From the NCBI RefSeq assembly GCF_000003815.2, contig NC_049992.1, positions 20,330,112-20,394,111 on the forward strand: a stretch of DNA of 64,000 nucleotides, written 5' to 3'. The DNA is from Branchiostoma floridae (Eukaryota; Chordata; Leptocardii; Amphioxiformes; Branchiostomatidae). The position numbers were made by a program, and so were the translations under genes. This document shows, in pieces, positions 3,056-60,718 of the stretch (position 1 is its first letter; every line of letters begins with the position of its first letter). Under the pieces are notes generated by a model. It saw only the letters and a program-made list of their open reading frames with translations, was not told where the DNA came from and made no database searches.

Positions 3056-5359
3056 ATGCATTTGATTGATATTCTAAGGATCTATATATGGTACAAATTT
3101 CAAGCCAAAAAAATTACCAGCTTGGCACTTATAGCGTTACAAAGTTGGGCCAAAAATCAAATTTTTTTGAAGCTTGAAACATTGCACTGTTTTCAGGCTG
3201 CCCAAGAACGAAAATGTACGACTTTGGAAATTTCACAACAATTTTTAAAAAGCCAAAATGTTGGTCTATTCAGATCTTGTTTTGTTTTGATGATAGGTTT
3301 AAAGGTGTTGCCGAGACAGTGCCGTAAAATATGCTGAGTTCTGTGTTTTTGAGATGCGAAAATTGGGAAAAATGGCCAGAAAACTTTGTTGGCCCGTTAC
3401 CATGGCAACAAGGAGTTTTGATCTAAAAGAAAGCTATTTTGAGGGGTTGTGGACCAAGTACTATCACTGTGCAAAATATGAGCCAAATCTATTTTTTTAC
3501 CTTTGCCACCATTGTTTGATCCTTACAGACATTTGCTCTTAAATGTCCCTAGCTTCGTCCTTTTATACCTTAATGATTTAGCCAATAATTTTAGATAGGC
3601 GATGGGTTAAAAGAATAAGTTTCCATCTTTGTTCTGTGAAAGATCAATTTTACCAATCAGGTAGTTTTGACTGAAAAATGAACTGATTCATTTTTGAACC
3701 AAAAATCGCTATTTTGTACATTTCAATGAGAAAGACTGAAAATCGACTGCCCCACACCCTCCCTACATAATTTGCTACTCTCCTGTTGCTGCACGCAGAC
3801 GATCGCGACGTTGCAGTGTTCTTAGAATCTGAAACAGGATTACAATGCAAAAATGATAAGTTTAATGCCTTCTGAACAAAATGTAAGATCCAAGTAAATT
3901 TTATTATAACTTATGTAACTGTTAATGGTTTTCAACGAATCAGGAAGACCTGGGAAGGGCATCAAATTTTCCCTTTGGCCTTGGCATGACGTAGAATATA
4001 TCCAAATCACAAACTTATACACTTATCTAATAAACTTGATTTTGTAAGCCCTAATTCGTACTTTACTGTCCACAATGACCCTACTGAAACTCTACGATTG
4101 TATCAACTCTATAATTTTATATGTCTGTTAGATGTAGGATTCCTCAATTGTCAAATTGATAAAAACAACCTTGCTGTGCCCAGGAATTCACGTAACCAAG
4201 CATGCAGGACAGGACTTGGTATGTCCCCAACATATATAGACATATCAATCCGTGTAACAAAATGCTGGATAAGACTAAAAACAAGTAGACAGCTCCGCAC
4301 TCCCCTTACAGGTGGACACACTTCTAAAATATTTTTAAAACTTTCTGCACCATATTAAAGAAATAACATAAATTACAGGCTATTCTTTCTTATCGAACAC
4401 GAACTACCCTACATTAGACAATAAGAATTTATGTACACGTAGATTAAGCTAAGATTTTACAAAAATGTCAAATCCTAATAGCCGATTGAAAATCATCGTG
4501 ATTATAATGCGTTTAATGAAAGACAAAATAAGAACAAGCGCACATCCTTTAGAGATAGAAAGGGTCGTAATATTGTGTACATACTGCTCAATGAATGCAG
4601 TGAAAAATGAAATACTTTTTATTAGTCATTGTACACACTATATTTCAAACAGTTGATACAATTTTACTAACATTTTACTACAGGAAATACCCAAAATACT
4701 ATATTTCTACTAAAAGTCAAAATCTAATCATTACACCAAACGTGGGACAGTTCATTCACCACTGCCTTCAAAGAAGAAGTCAAACCAGACAATATCATAC
4801 ATTGTATCATATCAGACCCTAAAATTAAGTATCACTCTATTTTTTACTCTTATTCTTTTAGAATGTATTTGCAATTAGCCTTCGGGCATGATTTTGCAAC
4901 AAAAAACATTGATAATAATGGCACCGTCAATATTAAGGTAGACGGACAAAGTTTTGTTTCTGTCATGCGCATAAACAAAATAATTAGACATTTCACACTC
5001 ACCAGATGACTTCTATGGCAGTGACTCACAGTCCTTCTCGCTTTATCAGGACTTAAACATTAACGACACGACATCGATATTTGGTTCTCAGTAGACAGAG
5101 TTGCTTTGTTCCTGGTGTCGGTTAACAGTAATACTTTATTCAAGACACAGGGCGAACCATTTTTCAAGTGTTTATAATCAATTGTAGATACATAGATATG
5201 TCATCGCACAATGGTATTCCTGGAGTATAGTAAATAAAGTGCTTAACTGAACAAATATGTCTGTCCTTATCATGGTGTAAAATGATATATAATGCCCTAA
5301 ACATGTTTACACGAATACATACAAATAGTCTATATCCCGAAACGGAACGAAGCGGTTAC
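3056..5359. other. non-coding stretch with one X-box-like palindrome
   Basis: No exon or RNA gene was recognised. GTTACCATGGCAAC at 3396-3409 is one base off the perfect RFX palindrome seen in the TTAA elements elsewhere. From about 4880 the sequence ('ttcgggcatgattttg', later 'ttcaagacacagggcgaac') resembles 13030-13300 and 26280-26460, marking it as a duplicated flank of the receptor locus. Confidence 0.5.
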
Positions 5360-42838: not shown

Positions 42839-43051
42839 CTACGGCGTCACTACACTATAGATCAGCGCCAGGCAAGTGGCCATCACTGGAACTGCATACA
42901 CACCAGGGCGCCAGGCGCCGGAGCCCGCCCAATCCTCCACGGTAGGACCAGGGTTTGCCGGAGTAGTTTCCTGTGCAGTCCTCCCGCTGCATACGTCCTC
43001 GGGAGTCACTCTGAGTCCGCGTGGTAAGGGCAGATCTTCGTCAAAAAGGCG
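42839..43051 (-). CDS. monooxygenase last exon with hydrophobic C-terminus
   Basis: The acceptor TTTTTTTCAG and a phase-0 start give RLFDEDLPLPRGLRVTPEDV, a Thr/Pro/Gly spacer, then GVYAVPVMATCLALIYSVVTP and TAG (42839-42841). The 213-bp exon is open throughout. The C-terminal hydrophobic segment with a small-residue GSGA just before it suggests a GPI-anchor signal or a single membrane anchor. Confidence 0.75.
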   Translation of the reverse strand, partial: RLFDEDLPLPRGLRVTPEDVCSGRTAQETTPANPGPTVEDWAGSGAWRPGVYAVPVMATCLALIYSVVTP

Positions 43052-46000
43052 CTGAAAAAAACGGTAAAATATGAAAAATATTACAGTTTTTTTTAGTCAA
43101 TTTGAGCTACGTGTTCCTTGATTTTGTTCACGACATAGTTTCATTTCTACTTTGGGGACAGTAGAGATGTTTTCACGGTCCACAATTCCCTGCTGCATTA
43201 CGTTTACAGGATACAGATTTGAGAATCTAAGGATGCCTTCGCCGTATTTCATAAGATACAAACGTATTTCTATTAGATCCCAATATCTCGAAGATTGAAT
43301 TGATAACTCTAATGGTACGTTGAGAATAAAAAGCTGCAATGATTCTAATGTGTTAAAGTACTTGAATATAAGAAATTGTTGCTTCCGTCTGCAAGCAGAT
43401 GTTTGGCTGTTACAAAGGCCAACGAATAAGTGACAAAATATAGCCGGATTCAAAGGCATAGAAGAAGTCCTTAGACCCCAGACCTAACCTCTACTTGAGT
43501 ATGTTAATCAGTGTAATGGCTTAATAAATTATTTATTTATTGTATTGAGGCCAAGCCTAGGGAAAACGATATGTTGCAGGTTACAATTCTGGAAAAAAAG
43601 AAATTTTGGCCGACAAAAGCATTTAAGTAAAGTAAAGCAAAAATGCAATGGGATGTTCTATACTTTATTGTAATTTCACATATGTTCATTGCACAAGCAT
43701 ATTGTATTGCTAAATTAAACAAAGAATAACAGTGCAAAAAATGATTTTTTTTAAACTAAGATTTTACATATGAAAATTTAATGTCCCTTCCAGCAAAAGA
43801 AAAAGAACACTAGGGTGGGCGATTTTTGCTAAGGTCGAACCTGTAACCAAAAACCTATGTTTTCCTAGGTTTTAGGATTCTTACAATATCAACGGCAGAC
43901 TCGGGATTGGCCAGGCAGCGGGTGTGGAAGATCCCATTCAGCAGCATGTCAGAGAAGGTTTGTGCTTTCTCCTCTGTCCACGGGACAGCTTTGATGGCAT
44001 CCTCGTAAGTCATGCCTACCATGGCTGCTGGCGCAGTGATGTTCAATTCCAAAGTGTCATAGTCACTATAAATGCAACATTGAGGAAGGTAATGTTGAAA
44101 AGAACTGCCACAAGAAGATCAAACTTCTAAGATCACAATAGTGACCACATGCCAAGTAGAGCAACAGCAGTGACCGCATGTTATTTTAAAAGGGAAAAAC
44201 CTTGAATATTTCTGAATAAATAATTTTTTTTCACACATTTGCGAACCAGATGAAATTAGTATTTTCTTGAAATAATCTTCTTAATGTATGAAGATTATGA
44301 AGTTTTGAGCATCGATGACGATGGTATTGTTAAGGTCCCATATTCAACATAGTGTACACTTAAGTAGCCTCCTTCACCGGTCTCTCTGTAGGCATTGGGA
44401 TACGTTGTAGGGGGTGGCTGGGGTACCGTGGTGGTGTCAAGAGACCGGGTCGATTCGCTATTTGTAACAAGGAATGCGCCGGGAAAGGTGTATACTAACG
44501 AAAAGTTTTAGTGGGCCGTATGCGTGTATCCGTTTGGTTGAGGACAGCATAACTCGAGACGCCTTGAATTGATCCAGATGAGATTTGGAAGGTGGGTAAG
44601 GGTCAGGGAAGTAAAGGTCAAGTGCGATAATGGGCCCCCCGGCGGCTTCCTAAGGAACTGAAGCAATTCTATTGTTGACATCTCATGTTCTAGACATGCT
44701 GTGGTCGTGATGTTTGTGTGGTAGATAGCCCTTGGGGAAGAGAGTAAAAACTGTGAGTTTAAACCCCCGAGCGGCTTTGCAGCTGAACTGCAGACACCCG
44801 TTTCTTGTCAAACTTTGGACGAGAATAACTTGAGAACGTGTTGAAAAATCATCAAACTTATCACACATGTAAGTGAGAAAAAGAGAAATGTCAACACATA
44901 TCAATTACAGAAATAACCAAATAGTTTGCATAATTAATGAGATAATATGAACGTGTTGACAGATCATTATGATTTTTTGAATACGTATGTAGATAGCCTA
45001 GGTGAATAATTACATAACGGGATACTATTCATGCAAATTAACAGCTAGTTTTCATAAAGGAAAGCTTATAAATCCACTGCAGTCCATGATGGGACTTTCA
45101 AACTTGTCACGTAAGTAATTGACGACCACATTTGCATAGATAATGGAGAAATATATAATAATTCCATTGTGGTAAATGATGGGAATTTTATACAACAGAA
45201 CGAAGCTGAGTGAGCATCATTATACACAAACCATGCAAATTAGTTTCATATTTACATAATTAATCAGGAAACAATAAAATTGCCTTCTCTGCTATAATAG
45301 GACTTATAATTTCGACTTGTGATAGAGAAGGTGGTCAACCGAGACAAATTTTGCAAATCGTGACCTTATTTGAATCAAACGGAAAAATATAAATACACTC
45401 GAAAATATTCAAACCATTTGGCGAAGGTATGAGGTCGTGGAACTCTAGTTGTGTAAAATATGTATTCTAAATGCTTACAAGTCAGCATCCTGGATTCCAG
45501 CGAAGCCGGACGTGGTATAGAGACTTGGGGTACTCACACAGTCAGTCAGGTTGAACTTTGGGTAGTATTGGAAACCGGCCAGGCACAATTCATCCTTTAT
45601 ATCGAGTCCACCCTGCACAGAGGACCAAATTTGTACTGTTCAAGGACGACCTAATGAAGAGGTCAAATTTTCATGAAGTATTTCCTGCTATTGGAGAAAG
45701 CTAAGATGCAAATCGCCTGGGTTGAATGATCTGGAAGTTTAATTAAGGATCATGTATATGTATTTTTATGAAATCCTTTTGCGGATTAACTGATGCAATA
45801 AGCTTGAAAAAGGCAGTTTACCACTTACAAACGTAACGTGTTCCTTGTGCGTCGAATCGTAGGTACATTCTATAATCAGACTGTCACCCTGGAAAAGATT
45901 TGAAAAAAAAGATGTTAGAGAAAATTACGACTAAGGTTTGTGTACACTATGTTCTGGCTTTAGTACTTTCCAAATGAAAATCGTTTTGGGGGGAGGTTAC

Positions 46001-49000
46001 AATTTCCTAATAAAATTTGTAGCATTACGTCAATTTGACACAATATTGTTACCCAGCGAGAAAAGAAGCAACTGGTAGTGGATGAAGTGAAGAGAATGAT
46101 GGAAGAGAGGAAAGTAAAGGTTGTTGGTCAACACCAGCAGGGAGCCTGGATTAACTGGGAGAGCACAGTGGACAGAAAGTTAACGTGGAAAAACATGTGG
46201 GGAAAACCAGACTAGAGATTAAGTTTCCTAATAAGGGCAGCCTATGACATCATCCCATGTCCAAGAAACCTAAGCAGATGGTATTCAAAGAAGAATCTTG
46301 TGAGTTGTGTGGGGCAAAAAAAGGCCAACCTAAAGCATATCCTTTCTGCCTGCACTACCTCTTTAAAACAGGGAAGATACACCTGGCGTCACAACCAAGC
46401 TCTGAGGATCCTGGCTGCAACCTTAGACGAGGGAAGGAGAAAGGCAAGCAGCAATAGAGTTCAGAACCAGTCCTTCATCCCGTTCGTCAAGGAACTGCAG
46501 AAAGCGGCTCCAGCCAGCAGAAGGAGAGGTGAAGGTCTGTTGAGCAAAGGACGGTGGGAGATACAGTCGACCTGGACAACCGCTTAGTCTTCCCAAGAGC
46601 CATCTGCGAAACGACTCTGCGCCCGGACATAGTGCTTTGGTCACCAGCACAGAGAACAGTCGTCATAGTCGAGTTAACCGTCCCTTGGGAAGAAAATGTC
46701 CATGCAGCGTTCGAGAGGAAAAAGCTCAAGTACCAAGACCTAGTACAACAGTGTGCAGAGAACAGTTGGAGGGCGTTGCTATACCCAGTAGAGGTAGGAT
46801 GCAGGGGATTCGTAGGAACATCCATCACACGCCTCTGTAGAGAACTCTCAATCAGTCACAAGCAGCTAGTGAAAGCGTTATTTGAAGAAGTGGAGCGATG
46901 CAGCTTTTGGCTGTGGGTTAAGAGGAAAGATCTGCGGATGGGAACCAATGAGTAGTAGTCAGAAGAGTTGCAGAAAAGCAGAGTGAAGACGTACGCCCTG
47001 CTGTCTCCCCACCTAGAGGCCGTCTCAGATTAGGGGACGAAACGACCGATGAGAGTTGGATCTGACTGATGATTTCTGTAACTCAAGGCGCTGGAAAGTG
47101 CGACAAGTAGCAAGCCTACTAGGCAGGTGAGTTTCAGACTCATGCTGTATACGTTCAAAACCTTTCAACAACAACATAGACAGTTATTTTTACCTCGGTA
47201 GCCACTTGTACGGGGACGGTCGCTATAGCTTTCCAGTCTGAACATATGGGACCGCCGCTGTCGCAAACTCAGCATGTGTGACTAATTACTAAAGTACATT
47301 GTCTTCTCGCGCGATCTCGGTTTCCGTGCCATTATGGATCACCCGGGCGCTTATCTTCACCCCCAGCGGTCGGGTGGCAAGGTTTACGCCGACGATGTGT
47401 ATGGGCTGTCCGAGCTCCTCAAGGAACTGAAACCAAACGAATATATAATATATACATCCTTAGCAGGTGGCAAGGTTTACGCCGACGATGTGTATGGGCT
47501 GTCCGAGCTCCTCGAGGAACTGAAACCAAACGTATCCTAGTAATATTTAGAGACTTACATAAGCAATGAAACATTGTTTCGCAAACAAGACTTAATAAAT
47601 AAATTTTTATTGCAAATTCATGCCCGAGTGCAAATTGCAGACAAAGTCAAGTAGTGTTATACATAATCGTATACTTAACAGAGAAGTTAATGGGAACTAT
47701 AGGTAAATCAAACGAGAAATAACGTCTGATCTAAACGTAATTCTACTTAAGCTATTTGATGGGTTTGATTTCTTTTCCGTATGCAGTGGGAGATGATTTG
47801 TCCAACAGTTTCATTTATAATGGGGTTGGACGAAGTAAAAGAAGACTATTTATTGTTGGTCGGTAAGGTGAGAATAGCTTGGGAAAGATTTGCAGGTTTT
47901 CAGGAAAAGTTTGTTTCTTTCGGAATAATATAGTGACATTTTCTTGATAATACAGTGACACTGGTTTTAACATTGACAATCTTCAATGTAATAAGATGGG
48001 GATTTCAATAACAACGTAAAACTAATTATACTAGGGCACATCCTCACTTATCGCTACCAAAACTATCATATATAAAACGGATTGGAATGCGAAAGTTTAC
48101 TTTTATTTATTGATGGAAACCAAACGCCCAAGGCATCGATGGCGGTCCCAGATAACACTTTTTCAAAGGTTGTGACATTAATTGTTAGCAGTGGAAAGGC
48201 ATTCATATAGCCTAACACAGCAAGCTTCCATTGCCTGTAGCTAGTTCATATTGCATACCAGACGGCATGGCATTAATAGCCAACCTTACTCTCTCTCCCA
48301 CTCTCTCTTTCAAACAGTGTTTGATATTTTTCGTTGGAAGTTAACATAATCTCTTTTTTTTCAAATCAGGTGAAAATCAATGCAAACTTATGCCATCGAT
48401 GAAGTAGATATGATGTGGCATTTTATATACCATATCATTTCAATTTGACACTCTCTACAACAAAATCCATGATGCACCGAGGAAGAGATGTTCGCTACAT
48501 CACTATCAACGGTTGTTGACCACCCTACAAGATTCATAAATAGGAAAAAAAAACAATTAGCAATCTCCTTTGTTTTCTTTTCTTTGACACTTAGATCCTT
48601 CTTAATATTTGAATTTTCCATGGCGCAAAGAAGCAAATAAGTACTACCTACCGCGCTTAGGCATCTTGAATTGCAAAATCCCGCTGACACGAACGCCTCA
48701 GCGTGAGGCGGCACAACGTGGTATTTATTCACCCCCACTCCAACCAGCAGGACACCCATATCGTTATCCCTCAGCTCGGGCGTGTATGTCAGCCTCAGCC
48801 CCGAACTGTCATGTATACCTATATATGAAACGGCAGGCGGATAGATTTCAACTTGGGCGGGCCGACTCTCTTCGCAGCGAGGAGCTTACAATAGGTGGGG
48901 CTAAATCACTTGGGTCTGGAGCGGCTAAGCTGCTCTGGCGTTATGTGACATAAAAGTTAGCGCAGGCCTAAAAAAAAATTAAAAGCCCCCGTCTGAATAG

Positions 49001-52000
49001 GGTTAGGCCACAGCAAGTAAATTTTATGGATAAAATCGTCTGCAGACTGCAAAAATAGTGCGAAAGGGCAAAAAAAAACAAGATGAATTAAAGGGACAAA
49101 ACATGCTATCTGAGCCAACAAGGCATTCATTTCTGTATTCAAGACATGTACTGGTGTGGTAAAAGTGACACTAGCGTGGGAGACCGGCATCACCAACAAA
49201 GTGGGTAACTACACTAATGGCCTCCATATTGGTGTCTCTTTTACAACAATCCCATAAACAACATACTTGCTCTTTTCGGTACTTTTTTCTTGTTTGTTTA
49301 TTTATTCGCAAAACAAAATATATAAAACAATACAGAAAAGAATTCATAAAAAACAGGTGCAGGAGGAGGGAAAAACCGTAAACACTTATACTATACCTCC
49401 TCATCTAATCTTAACAAATGTAGGGTAGTCGGTAAAGAACAAAGAAGAGTAACTCATAGGATGAGATAATGATACAAAAGGATAATCAAATAATAATAAT
49501 CTAAATTGAGATAAGATAATAACTGACAATATGAGACTACTATAGGGGGCTAGGATGGTTTATGAGATGGGTTTTAGGGGACTTTTAAAAGTAGGAAATT
49601 TTTTTTTGGTTCATTTGTCTGAAGGCTGTTTCATATTGTGACACATGTGTATTTTACGGAGGACTGCGCTAATGATGTGCGGAAGAGTTGATTAAAGCCC
49701 CGGTCACAAGAATCGTACGATTGACTGCGATGGTGGTTTTATGCGCGGCATAAGCGCAGTACGTCGTAAGTCGGGGAAGAATCGGAAGCAATGGTTAAAA
49801 TATATGAAGCCGTGGTCACAAGGATCGTAGTGCATCGTACGATGAGGTCATAAGAGCGTACCTGCGTCAATCGCAGAGAAATCATAGTAAATCGGGGAGC
49901 CTCCTATGACGAGAATAGAGCTGAAATGGATTTTGAACATGTTCAAAATTTCGCTATCGTCGTAAGATTTTATTTGCCCCCAAAGCAGACTTCATTACGG
50001 CAATTTTTGTCTACTGATGAGGTTTTAGATTTATGAATTTTTAGCATGTTGTGATGGTTTCAGTTTTCCCTGATATTGTCGATATTGACGAAAAGGGAAA
50101 ATATATCAGTCGCAACTGCCACAGTCGCAACCAGAGAACAGCGCGCCCCGCACAGGTGATGCAGACAATTGTTTGATCGCTTCATGCACGTGAGTTTATA
50201 ATTAGATCAAATCTCAGCTCTCGTCGGTCTTGGGTCAGTTTACCATAATCGTAATAACCATGGGGACAACTCAAACATAAAGGCAGGCTCTATGAGTCGG
50301 AAATATATATGATATAATGCTTATGATGTGATTTTTGTATGATGGCATCTTTTTGTTGATAGCATATCATGATACGATCTTCGAAAGAGCCTGACACGTA
50401 GAGCCGGCAAGCAGGCCGAGACAACCATACCAGTACTCACGCTTGATTTGAACTTTTGCTTGTAATACTCTTGTTGTCATGGTCTTTTTAAATTCATTTT
50501 TACAGTTAAAGATATTATAGGAAGGTATTCAGCAGCTATGTCCACATTTTGTTGGTTAAAGAAGCACAAAAACGGTCAGACGGCTATACAGAAGAGACAC
50601 AAGTGAAAAATCGTACGACGCTGGAAAAATTTTGAACATCATCCGATGCTCTGTGATGGCTGATTTTGCTTGCGATTTAGCTGCGATCCACTGTGATCAT
50701 CGTGCGATAGGCGTAATATGCCATCGCAAGGACGTCGTACGATTCTTGTGACCGGGGCTTATGTAGTTGATTTCTTTACCTGGCATGATAGTTGTGTACA
50801 CGTGAATTAGGGTTAAGAAAATTTTCAAATAGATCGAGGAGTTTGTCGGAAAGGAAGTTAAACGTGAATATACTAATTTACAACTTAATGATATCATGCA
50901 TGATTAATGGTCTTGATTCTAGAAATAAAGGAGCTGTATGTGAGAGAAAATCATAGGTAGTGGCTATTTGCGTGGATTTCTTTTGCAGGGTTATAAGAGG
51001 GTGTATGGTTGTTTTTTATTTACTTTATCGTCATATTGACCACCGCTGCAGAAGGAAAGAAATTCTTGTGTTTTTTTTCTGAAATCAGGCGAAAAGTAAT
51101 GCGCGCGCTCATGTCATCCAAAAAATTTACTTGCTGTGGCCTTAACGTGCTCGAGGAGTGGATCTCCTCAAACACGAGACTCATGTGTTAGACAATGTGC
51201 CATCAACACAGAAGAAGAACCACTGGATACATCCTGTCGGACAGGAGTGCCACAAGTTCTTAATACGAGGGGAGTTCAAGAAGTAATCCACCTGACCCAT
51301 TTCCCAAAGGAGGAGAGTAATGAAACTTGGTGCAGTTATTAGTCTTTCTCTTCATAGGAATCACCAAGAGTTATGCATTTCTACCATCGTTTGATGCAGC
51401 TCTGTACACCGTTTTTGTAGGACGCCCCAGGTTGGTCATGCAACAGATGCCTCATCAATGGCAGAAGAGGGACGACCAGGTCTGGGAGCTGTTTCCACAG
51501 ACTTCCGGCCATGTTTGAATTCACAATGCCAGCGTTTTACAAGGTCATATGATGGGGAATCATCACCATAAGTTTCTTTTATTTCATCAAAAGTCTCATT
51601 TGGTATGCGTCCTTTCAAATACAAAAACCGGATCACTGCGCGACACTCAACTGGCTCCATTTCACACCTGGTCCATTTCACACCTGACTTAGTTCAAACA
51701 CCTTTAAATCAAAAACCAAAATTAGTTCAGAGCTGTTTTTTGCAACATAACCTATAGAGATATGAATCATTACATATGCAAAATGTCATCTAGATCAGAC
51801 AACTGGAAGTGGGTCAGCTGGATTACTTCTTGAACGCCCCTCGTATGACGTTCTTTGGAGGTAGACGTAAAATCTAACATAGCATATGAGCCTGTAAAGT
51901 AAATAAGGGACATCTCAATATACAAGAACAATATCGTTATGTCTTTAAATTAAGAGTTATTACCTCCATGAAAAATGGAGGTATAGTTTTTTGGTGTGTC

Positions 52001-52795
52001 TGTGTGTCTTCCTGTCTGCCTGTCTGTCTGTATTTCCGCATATTTGTAGTCAGTATTATACTCTAGAACCTCAGGATGGATTGTAATGATTTTTTGGTAT
52101 GTGTAACAATCTGAAATACATGTGACATGTGCAATTTGTGGCAGGAGGAAGATTAGCAGATGACAATTATGCCAATAATTCCCTAAATGAATAAACAATA
52201 TGAAAGTCCACACCGGTAATTATTCTCGGTAAAAGTAGAAAGGATTGAATTGTAACCATTGTGACCTGTGTTAGTTATTAGTTAAAGGTGTACATAACTT
52301 TACATGAATTATGCAAATGTTTAGGTAATTTGCATAATCAGAATATTTCAAAATCGTATGGGGTCTCTGAAATCTTGTATTCGGCTGTTCTGATCGAGAT
52401 TTTATGTTAGGTGTCACTCTTCTACAACTGCACTCCCTATATATTGATTTGAGAACATGACGGCTACCCCACGCCATTTTGATAACAAAGGACGGCATAT
52501 AATTTGGTTGCCATCCTTTTTTTAGAAAGCGATGTAGCTTTAAAAAGCGATGAGGGGTTTTAAAAAGCAATATGCTTCCTAGAAATTGTTGCAAACGTGG
52601 ACGGAAACCGGCTAGATTGGGTACAATAAACGTGTGAGAGGTGACCTGGAGCTGCAAACTTTAAATAAGCCAAACATTTTCTACCCTCTGACCTGATGCC
52701 AGCTGAGGGTTGTCGTAGTGCATCTCCATGATCACATAACCGCTATCCTCGTCATCACCGATGGGGTAGCCAACGTGGTCTGGAGTGAGGACGGT
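42839..52795 (-). CDS. copper type II monooxygenase (DBH/MOXD1-like), 3' part of gene
   Basis: Minus-strand exons 52693-52795, 48652-48818, (47194-47237 tentative), 45829-45888, 45479-45612, 43885-44065 and 42839-43051 have GT/AG sites and agreeing phases. Together they cover the C-terminal half of the family, which hydroxylates small aromatic or peptide substrates using two copper sites, oxygen and ascorbate in the secretory pathway. Seen: YVIMEMHYDNP (its His aligns with the third CuH ligand), GIHDSSGLRLTYTPELRD, SAGFCNSRC, GDSLIIECTYDS, and GGLDIKDELCLAGFQYYP. Relatives have DEMC, where Met is the CuM ligand; here it is DELC. No exon with the CuM His-x-His pair was found. The 5' exons (DOMON domain and the CuH His-His pair) are not visible up to 64 kb. 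It is either a diverged non-enzymatic member or a decaying gene. Confidence 0.82.
43885..44065 (-). CDS. monooxygenase exon
   Basis: Acceptor TTTATAG, donor GTAAGA, 181 bp, entering in phase 2 and leaving in phase 0. Translation: DYDTLELNITAPAAMVGMTY, then KAVPWTEEKAQTFSDMLLNG and HTRCLANPESAVDI. It contains one N-glycosylation sequon (NIT). It corresponds to the region after the copper-binding core in family members, where one more cysteine is expected. Confidence 0.75.
44540..45452 (+). mobile_element. octamer-rich element, copy D
   Basis: It begins near 'gacagcataactcgagac' and ends at 'aaggtatgaggtcgtggaactctagtt', 27 bp from a donor-side exon edge of gene 2 (45479). Modules are the same as copies A-C but more diverged. 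Confidence 0.7.
45479..45612 (-). CDS. monooxygenase exon with CuM methionine position
   Basis: Acceptor TGTGCAG, donor GTAAGC, 134 bp, phase 0 to phase 2. It reads GGLDIKDELCLAGFQYYPKF, NLTDCVSTPSL and FAGIQDAD. The family signature is GG-x4-(D/E)EMC-x5-YYP; the methionine codon is TTG (Leu) here. Everything else in the motif, including Cys and YYP, is kept. Confidence 0.85.
45829..45888 (-). CDS. monooxygenase 60-bp exon
   Basis: Acceptor TTTTCCAG, donor GTAAGT, exactly 20 codons in phase 0: GDSLIIECTYDSTHKEHVTF. It matches the GDSLIIECxYDS segment of DBH/MOXD proteins and joins the next exon as HVTF-GGLD. Confidence 0.88.
46050..46955 (+). pseudogene. RLE-type non-LTR retrotransposon fragment, second family
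   Basis: A plus-strand remnant antisense to gene 2, inside an intron. The frame runs QHQQGAWINWESTVDRKLTW, a stop at about 46211, RLSFLIRAAYDIIPCPRNLS, then LKHILSACTTSLKQGRYTWRHN. The zinc CELCG pair sits in another frame next to an A7 run (about 46316-46322), so a slippage frameshift splits it. The last part (46554-46955) has RPDIVLW and IVELTVPWEENVHAAFERKK, the PD-(D/E)xK endonuclease core. It is homologous in layout to the 450-aa frame at 36778-38130 but differs in sequence, so it is another family. Confidence 0.82.
47194..47237 (-). CDS. possible small exon of the monooxygenase gene
   Basis: CAG acceptor and GTAAAA donor. It reads WKAIATVPVQVATE and leaves in phase 0, as the next exon (GDSLIIEC) needs. 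The VPVQV part fits the 'EPVTVLPGDSL' position of relatives. An alternative acceptor 20 bp further (to 47257) would give GGPICSDWKA. Tentative. Confidence 0.35.
47334..47540 (+). other. short frame with a 67-bp near-perfect duplication
   Basis: The frame MDHPGAYLHPQRSGGKVYAD continues to a second copy of GGKVYADDVYGLSELLEELK. Units 47373-47439 and 47466-47532 differ at one base seen. The spacer ends 'ccttagcag', like a splice acceptor. It may be a duplicated exon fragment of an unrecognised gene, or captured cellular sequence. Confidence 0.4.
47541..48651. other. intron of gene 2 where the CuM exon would be expected
   Basis: Both strands were read for a His-x-His exon (GTGNGTRTG on the plus strand) and for a YDFNF-like segment; neither was found. 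No element ends recognised. Confidence 0.45.
48652..48818 (-). CDS. monooxygenase exon after the CuH site
   Basis: Acceptor TATATAG, donor GTAGGT, 167 bp, phase 1 to phase 0. It reads IHDSSGLRLTYTPELRDNDM, GVLLVGVGVN and PPHAEAFVSAGFCNSRCLSA. The DSSGLRLxYTxxLR and GxC...C features match DBH/MOXD proteins. The next expected exon (CuM His-x-His) is not found. Confidence 0.85.
49006..51141. mobile_element. Harbinger-like element, 2,136 bp, with nested insertion
   Basis: GGCCACAGCAAGTAAATTTT at the left and AAATTTACTTGCTGTGGCC at the right are flanked by TTA on both sides (49003-49005, 51142-51144). The left part is homologous to 594-1085, the right part to the inverse of the left end of 7880-9031. 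It lacks a transposase and carries another TIR element at 49695-50760. It lies in an intron of gene 2. Confidence 0.85.
49695..50760. mobile_element. nested TIR element with AAGCCCCGGTCACAAGAATC ends
   Basis: The left AAGCCCCGGTCACAAGAATC and right GATTCTTGTGACCGGGGCTT are exact inverses, extending a few more bases (CGTACGA). A variant of the terminal motif (GTGGTCACAAGGATCGTA) recurs about 110 bp inside the left end. The target duplication could not be settled. No protein frame. Confidence 0.85.
51266..51843 (-). mobile_element. internally deleted mariner-type element
   Basis: TA duplications (51264-51265, 51844-51845) flank CGAGGGGAGTTCAAGAAGTA and its near inverse TACTTCTTGAACGCCCCTCG. 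At 578 bp it is about half the length of mariners and keeps only the start of the transposase. Confidence 0.9.
51436..51681 (-). pseudogene. mariner transposase N-terminal helix-turn-helix
   Basis: VECRAVIRFLYLKGRIPNET, then YGDDSPSYDLVKRWHCEFKH and GRKSVETAPRPGRPSSA match the N-terminal DNA-binding domain and linker of Mos1/SETMAR-type transposases (SYxTVxRWxxEF, GR.S.E..PR.GRP). The DDD/DDE catalytic domain is absent. Such a fragment could bind element ends but not cut. Confidence 0.88.
51957..52345 (+). mobile_element. octamer-rich family fragment, copy G
   Basis: It starts with the hairpin ACCTCCATGAAAAATGGAGGT, has a GTCTGTCTG run, and ends with ATTATGCAAATG...TAATTTGCATAATC. The remainder to the exon at 52693 has no feature. 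Confidence 0.6.
52693..52795 (-). CDS. monooxygenase exon with CuH histidine
   Basis: Acceptor TTCTGACAG, donor GTCAGA, 103 bp, phase 0 to phase 1. It reads TVLTPDHVGYPIGDDEDSGY, then VIMEMHYDNPQLAS. P-x2-VGYPIG and the HYDNP motif are diagnostic of the DBH/MOXD family; this His corresponds to the third CuH ligand. It is the most 5' exon I can find. Confidence 0.88.
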
Positions 52796-53179: not shown

Positions 53180-53820
53180 TGTTTTCTAAAAAAAGGAGTT
53201 GGGGAAGGAATGGAAGAGCAGGGATGCTGTACGTCTCAACGCACGTCACTCGCACGATTGTGCAAGGTATAAGTTTGTGGTCTGCACGCATGGATGTGAG
53301 CCGGTTCCGTGTATCGTTCGTTGCGCAAGTGGTAAGTGAGTTGAACGTACGATCTCTGTGTGATTGCCACGTAACATTACTCAGGCCCTGCTTACACGTG
53401 CTGCGCAATTCCACAGCACAATAGCAGAGAAAGTTCGACGTGCACGTAGAATTCTACGACGTGTCTGCGTACTCCAAAATCCGCTGTATTCCGTACGTTT
53501 TCGTAGGGAGGCGGTACTTACCACTTACGGATCCCAAAAGACTGCCCACGTTTTGGCACGTAGACAACACGCAGATGCACGTAAAGCTATGTGCACAACC
53601 GGCAGTACGTGCAATTTGTCCGTACGTTTTTTTATGGGGGGAGGCCACGTCCGCCACGTATTCTGAAAACGTGAAGAACGACTGGTAAGACGTAGTAACT
53701 GATTTCCAAGGGAGCCCTGTATATACATGTTCGCACATGTTCGCACAACGACGGGTAATACCGCCCCTTACGGAGTGACACACCCACTGCGAACCTCGAA
53801 ATGCGTCAAATGGACAATAC
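53180..53820. other. CpG- and ACGT-rich stretch
   Basis: 'tacgt', 'cacgt' and 'acgta' recur many times, unlike the surrounding AT-rich DNA. No convincing gene: both strands show overlapping short frames without family motifs. It could be an unclassified transposon or a CpG-rich regulatory stretch upstream of the visible part of gene 2. Confidence 0.4.
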
Positions 53821-53825
53821 TGCAT

Positions 53826-54000
53826 CATTTTAAATTGGTTTTGCGTCTTTTGAAAAAGACGCAGCTTAACTGCTTCATTTTTAATTGGTTTTGCGTCTTT
53901 TGAAAAAGACGCAGCTAAACTGCTTCATTTCTAATTGGTTCTGCGTCTTCTGAAAAAGGCACAGCTAACTGCGTCATTTTAAATTGGTTTTGCGTCTTCT
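53826..54000 (+). repeat. 50-bp tandem repeat with internal palindrome
   Basis: About 3.5 units, each AATTGGTTTTGCGTCTTTTG followed by AAAAAGACGCAG. AATTGGTT starts at 53833, 53883, 53933 and 53982. GCGTCTTTT/AAAAGACGC forms a hairpin in the first two units and decays in the third. Confidence 0.92.
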
Positions 54001-60276: not shown

Positions 60277-60718
60277 GTTACGCCGAAGGGCGGTTATACC
60301 GGCTATATAGATACAGATACAGAAGCTGGTGTGTTACGCCAAGGGGCGGTTATACCGGCTATATAGATACAGATACAAAAGCTGGTGTGTTACGCCGAGG
60401 GGCGGTTATACCGGCTATATAGATACAGATACAGAAGCTGGTGTGTTACGCCGAAGGGCGGTTATACCGGCTATATAGATACAGATACAGAAGCTGGTGT
60501 GTTACGCCGAAGGGCGGTTATACCGGCTATATAGATACAGATACAGAAGCTGGTGTGTTACGCCGAGGGGCGGTTATACCGGCTATATAGATACAGATAC
60601 AGAAGCTGGTGTGTTGCGCCGAAGGGTGGTTATACCGGCTATATAGATACAGATACAGAAGCTGGTGTGTTACGCCGAGGGGTGGTTATATCGGCTATCT
60701 AGATACAGATACAGATAC
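60277..60718 (+). repeat. 56-bp minisatellite, about 7.9 copies
   Basis: Units start with GTTACGCCGAAGGGCGGTTA at 60277, 60333, 60389, 60445, 60501, 60557, 60613 and 60669, each with 'ggctatatagatacagatac'. Variants are single-base (AAGGG/GAGGG, CAAGG). The array begins exactly where the RT homology stops. Confidence 0.97.

Follow-up and report, generated by a model that had tools for sequence, protein, structure and literature searches.

A partial DBH/MOXD-type gene and its family

The window, a 64-kb stretch of Branchiostoma floridae NC_049992.1 without any N, carries on its minus strand the 3′ half only of a DBH/MOXD-type gene (Table 1). The joined translation matches the Pfam profile Cu2_monoox_C (PF03712) at 85.9 bits, against a cut-off of 23, and human DBH (PDB 4zel) with an E-value of 5.1e-28. 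This bears out a preliminary description of the locus as the 3′ exons, consistent in phase, of a copper type II monooxygenase gene, in which the CuH-ligand exon with HYDNP is kept. Six exons had been counted there; a recount gives seven readable coding exons (A, B, C, E, F, G, and H). The CuH-domain profile PF01082 is matched over positions 100–128 of 130 only; the score is 29.3 bits for the joined translation, against a cut-off of 30, and 35.1 bits when exon A is taken alone.

Table 1. Coordinates of the partial gene and of other elements in the window.
Feature	Position	Strand	Reading	Splice sites and ends
DBH/MOXD-type gene, 3′ half only	42839..52795	−	seven readable coding exons	
Exon A	52693..52795	−	CuH-domain exon; HYDNP, the third CuH histidine, kept (tblastn and junction reading)	acceptor ..ctgacag; donor TCAG/gtcaga, phase 1
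Exon B	48652..48818	−	start of CuM domain; two conserved Cys present	acceptor phase 1; donor GCG/gtaggt, phase 0
Partial tandem duplicate of exon C start	47466..47535	−	found by repeat search and translation	
Exon C core	47298..47426	−	homologue of the His-x-His exon	
Damaged 3′ end of exon C	47194..47297	−	in-frame TAG TAA at 47291–47286	usual donor gone
Exon E	45829..45888	−	reads GDSLIIECTYDSTHKEHVTF	good splice sites, phase 0
Exon F	45479..45612	−	DELC, with Leu (TTG) in place of the CuM Met	donor GACTT/gtaagc, phase 2
Exon G	43885..44065	−	C-terminal region; conserved Cys present	
Exon H	42839..43051	−	C-terminus; hydrophobic tail ...LALIYSVVTP	stop TAG, included
Probable mariner-like element	51254..51855		51-nt terminal inverted repeats, 86% complementary	
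Tandem repeat	53819..53998		50-bp unit, 3.6 copies	
Minisatellite	60277..60715		56-bp unit, 7.8 copies, 96% match	

The gene belongs to a large DBH/MOXD-type family. Genome-wide there are 37 Cu2_monoox_C matches among 85 candidates scored, and at least 19 other loci were read in the B. floridae genome, with adjoining pairs or groups on C5, C11, C13, C1, and C9. Places that were not fetched include C6:9567593, C1:34419760, C2:31848701, C19:13242658, C9:20227716, and C9:20234815. Six close paralogues, L024 and L025 (C13), L028 and L029 (C1), L031 (C9), and L032 (C10), have the same exon layout and phases as the broken copy on NC_049992.1 and share 60–81% amino acid identity with it in exons A–C (63–81% in exon A by tblastn). 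Junctions were checked against all six of these paralogues for exons A, B, C, E, and F, against three for exon G and against two for exon H. Splice sites and phases agree with these close relatives on other chromosomes, and intron positions, phases and cysteines are shared with intact DBH/MOXD genes, with the exon C donor as the sole exception. The exon H tail is similar to those of L028 and L032, the two compared. In trees the nearest neighbours of the broken copy are L024/L025. Different histories for exons A–C and E–G were considered; both separate trees place the copy beside the same pair.

A second locus of the family may also be incomplete. L018 (C9:9396001–9403000) carries, at 4861–5240 on the minus strand, exons E and F that are close to those of L017 (95% and 82% amino acid identity) together with exon G, and exons A, B, and C were not found in the 1.8 kb fetched upstream. 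It is perhaps another partial copy, or its remaining exons may lie outside the stretch.

The window contains three further elements. The one in the A–B intron is short and holds a reading frame matching the Mos1 transposase HTH_48 domain (E 2.4e-8); it is probably a deleted mariner-like element. The unit of the 50-bp tandem repeat has a short inverted motif, GCGTCTTTT / AAAAGACGC. The peptide encoded by the minisatellite, HTSFCICIYIAGIT.., recurs much the same in rotating frames, because a unit length of 56 is not divisible by three.

CuM ligands, exon C and the 5′ exons

The 43 codons of the exon C core give a gapless alignment with the six closest paralogues, with identities of 60–74%. Against L025 the two sequences, FLEELGQPIHIVGVNLATRPLGVKISARVIHNGTETEIAREDN here and FLEELGEPIHIIGLELHSHLLGVKMSARLIHNGTETEIARDDN there, are 74% identical, and the core also aligns with DBH across the ligand motif. 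This motif reads LATRPLG where the close paralogues have LHSHLLG or LHAHLLG; with the preceding residue it is NLATRPLG compared to NLHSHLLG in L028. At the codon level CTT GCC ACC CGA CCG stands in place of the CTT CAC TCC CAT CTA of L025. Both CuM histidines are thus substituted, the first by Ala (GCC) and the second by Arg (CGA). The change from L-H-x-H-L to L-A-T-R-P may have come about either through about five substitutions or through a few compensating single-base indels. The preliminary description had found no His-x-His exon between 48652 and 45888; the homologue lies within that interval and was overlooked because both histidines are substituted.

The second element of that description holds, as the CuM Met position in exon F reads Leu. 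The loss of the CuM site is therefore real but was understated as two elements: all three ligands are replaced, with Ala-Thr-Arg and Leu at the ligand columns. Of the six copper ligands, the assembled copy retains one, the HYDNP histidine.

Among the paralogues the site is well kept. His-x-His is present in 19 of 19 loci and the Met ligand in 18 of 18, these being fetched loci in which exon C or exon F, respectively, was found and readable, with overlapping loci counted once. L001, L019, and L026 have exon C but no exon F in the fetched stretch. Among the copies read, Leu at the Met position occurs only in the broken one. In L027 the Met ligand is kept and the next residue is Tyr rather than Cys (DEMY). 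Judged from the genome sequence, loss of the CuM site is specific to the NC_049992.1 copy among the copies read, which makes it a marked exception, since the CuM ligands are kept in all other readable copies. The six close paralogues likewise retain HSH or HAH, EMC, and an open exon C, whereas the broken copy does not.

Beyond its core, exon C is disabled relative to intact relatives. The frame continues V L TAG TAA, placing two stops two codons downstream of the core, where the paralogues extend the exon by a further 19 codons to the donor (YDFNLQ.. in five of six, YDFDLQ.. in L032). In the broken copy these last 19 codons are out of frame, the sequence is scrambled and the donor is not good. 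A donor matrix was built from 38 paralogue donors, which themselves score 4.6–12.0. The preliminary view that splice sites are preserved stands for the five other donors of the locus, which score 5.2–9.1 and fall within the paralogue range, but not for exon C, whose best candidate donor, AAT/gtactt (47298/47297), scores 2.9, lower than all 38. This cryptic donor is phase-compatible with exon E, as both are phase 0. A phase-restoring intron of 32 nt within the damaged exon was rejected, as its donor TTA/gtaatt scores −0.2 and the intron would be very short.

There is also a local duplication. A repeat search identified 70 nt that are 97% identical to 47373–47442, consisting of a copy of the exon C acceptor and the first 54 nt of the exon at an offset of 93 bp upstream. 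The duplicate translates as FLEELGQPIHIVGVNLATC and then runs into a stop. The two in-frame stops, the loss of the exon C end and donor, the duplication, and the failure to find a 5′ half had all been missed previously.

In the paralogues, the HYDNP exon is preceded by DOMON exons and by two exons that encode the CuH His pair. The distance from the second DOMON exon down to exon A is 1.5–3.5 kb in L022, L024, L025, L031, and L032, and the CuH exons fall between the two. Queries for the first DOMON exon were taken from four paralogues, for the second from four and for the third from three. Pfam confirms the identity of the L025 query exons: the three DOMON exons reach 107.3 bits (PF03351) and the two CuH exons reach 93.1 bits (PF01082). 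The search covered the whole window, of which 11.2 kb is upstream of exon A, a further 39.6 kb upstream and 9.9 kb on the far side. No credible DOMON, CuH His-His or other 5′ exon was found in any of these, including the ~51 kb upstream of exon A; the best E-values of the 5′ queries were 0.016 and 0.017, on the strand opposite to the gene. As a control, 5′ queries of the same kind were run against the fetched locus records, and each matches between 7 and 17 of them with an E-value of 1e-3 or lower, counting the locus from which the query was taken and the overlapping pair L005/L020. The control does not hold perfectly for all copies, as L018 has exons E–G without A–C in its fetched stretch. 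Hence, where the stretch was fetched, the close paralogues have 5′ exons a few kb away, while none were found for the broken copy. With the HYDNP histidine retained and the His-His exons not found in the ~51 kb searched, the CuH site is incomplete at this locus as assembled, and the DOMON queries characteristic of the DBH/MOXD branch gave no convincing match upstream.

Selection and traces of constraint

Constraint was assessed on an alignment of 249 codons (exons A, B, C core, E, F, and G) from the broken copy and seven paralogues, with exon H excluded. Exon G was trimmed of a 2-codon insert in L024 and in L025/L033, and exon C of L022 was trimmed of one codon; the alignment has no exon G for L036 and L022. 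L022 was left out of the codon models, which were fitted with purpose-written code rather than a standard program.

The branch leading to the broken copy has an ω of 0.38 compared to 0.20 in the background (2ΔlnL 4.95), and ω = 1 is rejected for the whole branch (2ΔlnL 9.64). The signal is uneven along the gene. Exons A–C have an ω of 0.21 against a background of 0.16 (2ΔlnL 17.0 against 1), and when the five motif columns (H, x, H, L, M) are removed this becomes 0.17 against 0.163, with ω = 1 again rejected (2ΔlnL 19.6). For exons E–G, ω is 0.61 against 0.26 and is not separable from 1 (2ΔlnL 2.7). By region, ω is 0.25 in A+B, where ω = 1 is rejected only at 2ΔlnL 3.8, 0.11 in C (15.0), 0.74 in E+F and 1.23 in G. 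Exons A–C therefore look to be under ordinary purifying selection outside the CuM motif, and exons E–G look relaxed.

Other traces of constraint were also found. The 249 aligned codons contain no in-frame stop, compared to 9.8 expected if the whole branch were neutral and 2.1 (P0 = 0.12) at a neutral divergence of 0.1, and all six conserved Cys columns are kept. Of 80 columns invariant among the paralogues, 13 are changed in the broken copy, including three of three CuM ligands and 10 of 77 others. Under random placement, the chance that all three ligand columns are among those changed is 0.0035. This suggests that the changes are focused on the CuM ligands more than blind decay would give; the statistic is only suggestive because ligand loss was the reason for choosing this case and the two substituted His positions are neighbours.

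Readings of the locus and known systems

The locus is probably a 5′-truncated, intron-containing DBH/MOXD-type duplicate that is now a pseudogene, which is the most likely reading because the 5′ half was not found and exon C is broken. Inactivation is most likely recent rather than old, as the open codons, ω below 1, kept cysteines, and focus on the ligands limit its age. With the N-terminal half lost, no secreted two-domain protein would be left to preserve. Selection would have ceased recently on an evolutionary scale, which would account for the open frames and good splice sites that most exons still have. Loss of the CuM motif perhaps came first, in a copy already dispensable or non-catalytic. 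The preliminary description had argued against random decay. The absence of stops, the six cysteines, and the ω of 0.17 in exons A–C agree with it, but recent inactivation fits these observations equally well, and both the ω of 0.61 in exons E–G and the raised ω of the whole branch count the other way.

It is unlikely that the copy passed through, or remains in, a functional stage without CuM. In such a stage the ligands would have been replaced while exons A–C stayed under purifying selection, giving a non-catalytic protein with the DBH fold, the stops being bypassed by the cryptic donor and the 5′ half supplied by unrecognised exons.

A non-catalytic pseudoenzyme working today, with the fold kept and CuM abandoned, is quite unlikely. 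It would splice exon C to E through AAT/gtactt and draw its N-terminal half from unfound exons or a new 5′ end. The phase compatibility of this donor speaks for it, as do the stop-free state of the other aligned exons, the background-like ω of exons A–C without the motif, and the concentration of changes at invariant columns on the CuM ligands. However, this donor is weaker than every paralogue donor and its use would shorten the CuM domain by 19 residues, the first copy of the acceptor runs to a stop, no DOMON or CuH His-His exon was found in the ~51 kb upstream, and exons E–G, which complete the CuM domain and the C-terminus, are relaxed. The non-enzymatic, perhaps substrate-binding, protein proposed in the preliminary description is hence not the best reading, given TAG TAA, the lack of a good exon C donor and the DOMON and CuH His-His exons that were not found. 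If a transcript existed, it would mean that a DBH-type protein is maintained without its oxygen-activating copper.

An artefact, in which the assembled copy is misjoined or a broken haplotype while an unbroken allele or the genuine 5′ half is located elsewhere, is quite unlikely as well: the locus was read in one assembly, highly heterozygous genomes assemble badly, and a 5′ break with a local duplication is typical of misjoin sites, but the window is free of N, and random base errors are improbable because the CuM changes comprise several base differences across two exons and GCC for the first His is common to exon C and the duplicated fragment.

Under the pseudogene reading, what had been suggested as a new pseudoenzyme would become a concrete pseudogene, and the mistaken absence of the His-x-His exon is put right. 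Among the papers listed in searches of open-licence literature, none described a lancelet DBH/MOXD protein without CuM.

Three known systems are useful for comparison. Human DBH binds CuM through His412, His414, and Met487 and CuH through His262, His263, and His333, as given in PMC4846438. Its structure (4zel) was aligned to the lancelet copy through HYDNP, the SGxRLxYT.. region, the HxH exon, and the EMC region, and its three CuM ligands correspond to Ala, Arg, and Leu in that copy. DBH also has a DOMON domain and the His262-His263 pair, whereas matching exons were not found at the lancelet locus. In PHM, CuH ligand mutants are described as inactive, and M314I at CuM as altering the conformation and lowering thermal stability (PMC6123673). 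These are single engineered changes, in contrast to the lancelet copy, in which all three CuM ligands are replaced.

MOXD2 offers a likeness in gene loss. Pseudogenes are described in human, orangutan, gibbons, and whales (PMC4125168) and loss in many birds (PMC4830563), the former account including exon deletion, stops or frame disruption as the ways in which this DBH-like gene was lost. Intact MOXD2 is described there as membrane-bound (PMC4125168), and the lancelet copy has a hydrophobic C-terminal tail. MOXD2, however, represents the loss of a vertebrate gene, while the B. floridae locus is one copy of a large family and has had its CuM ligands replaced.
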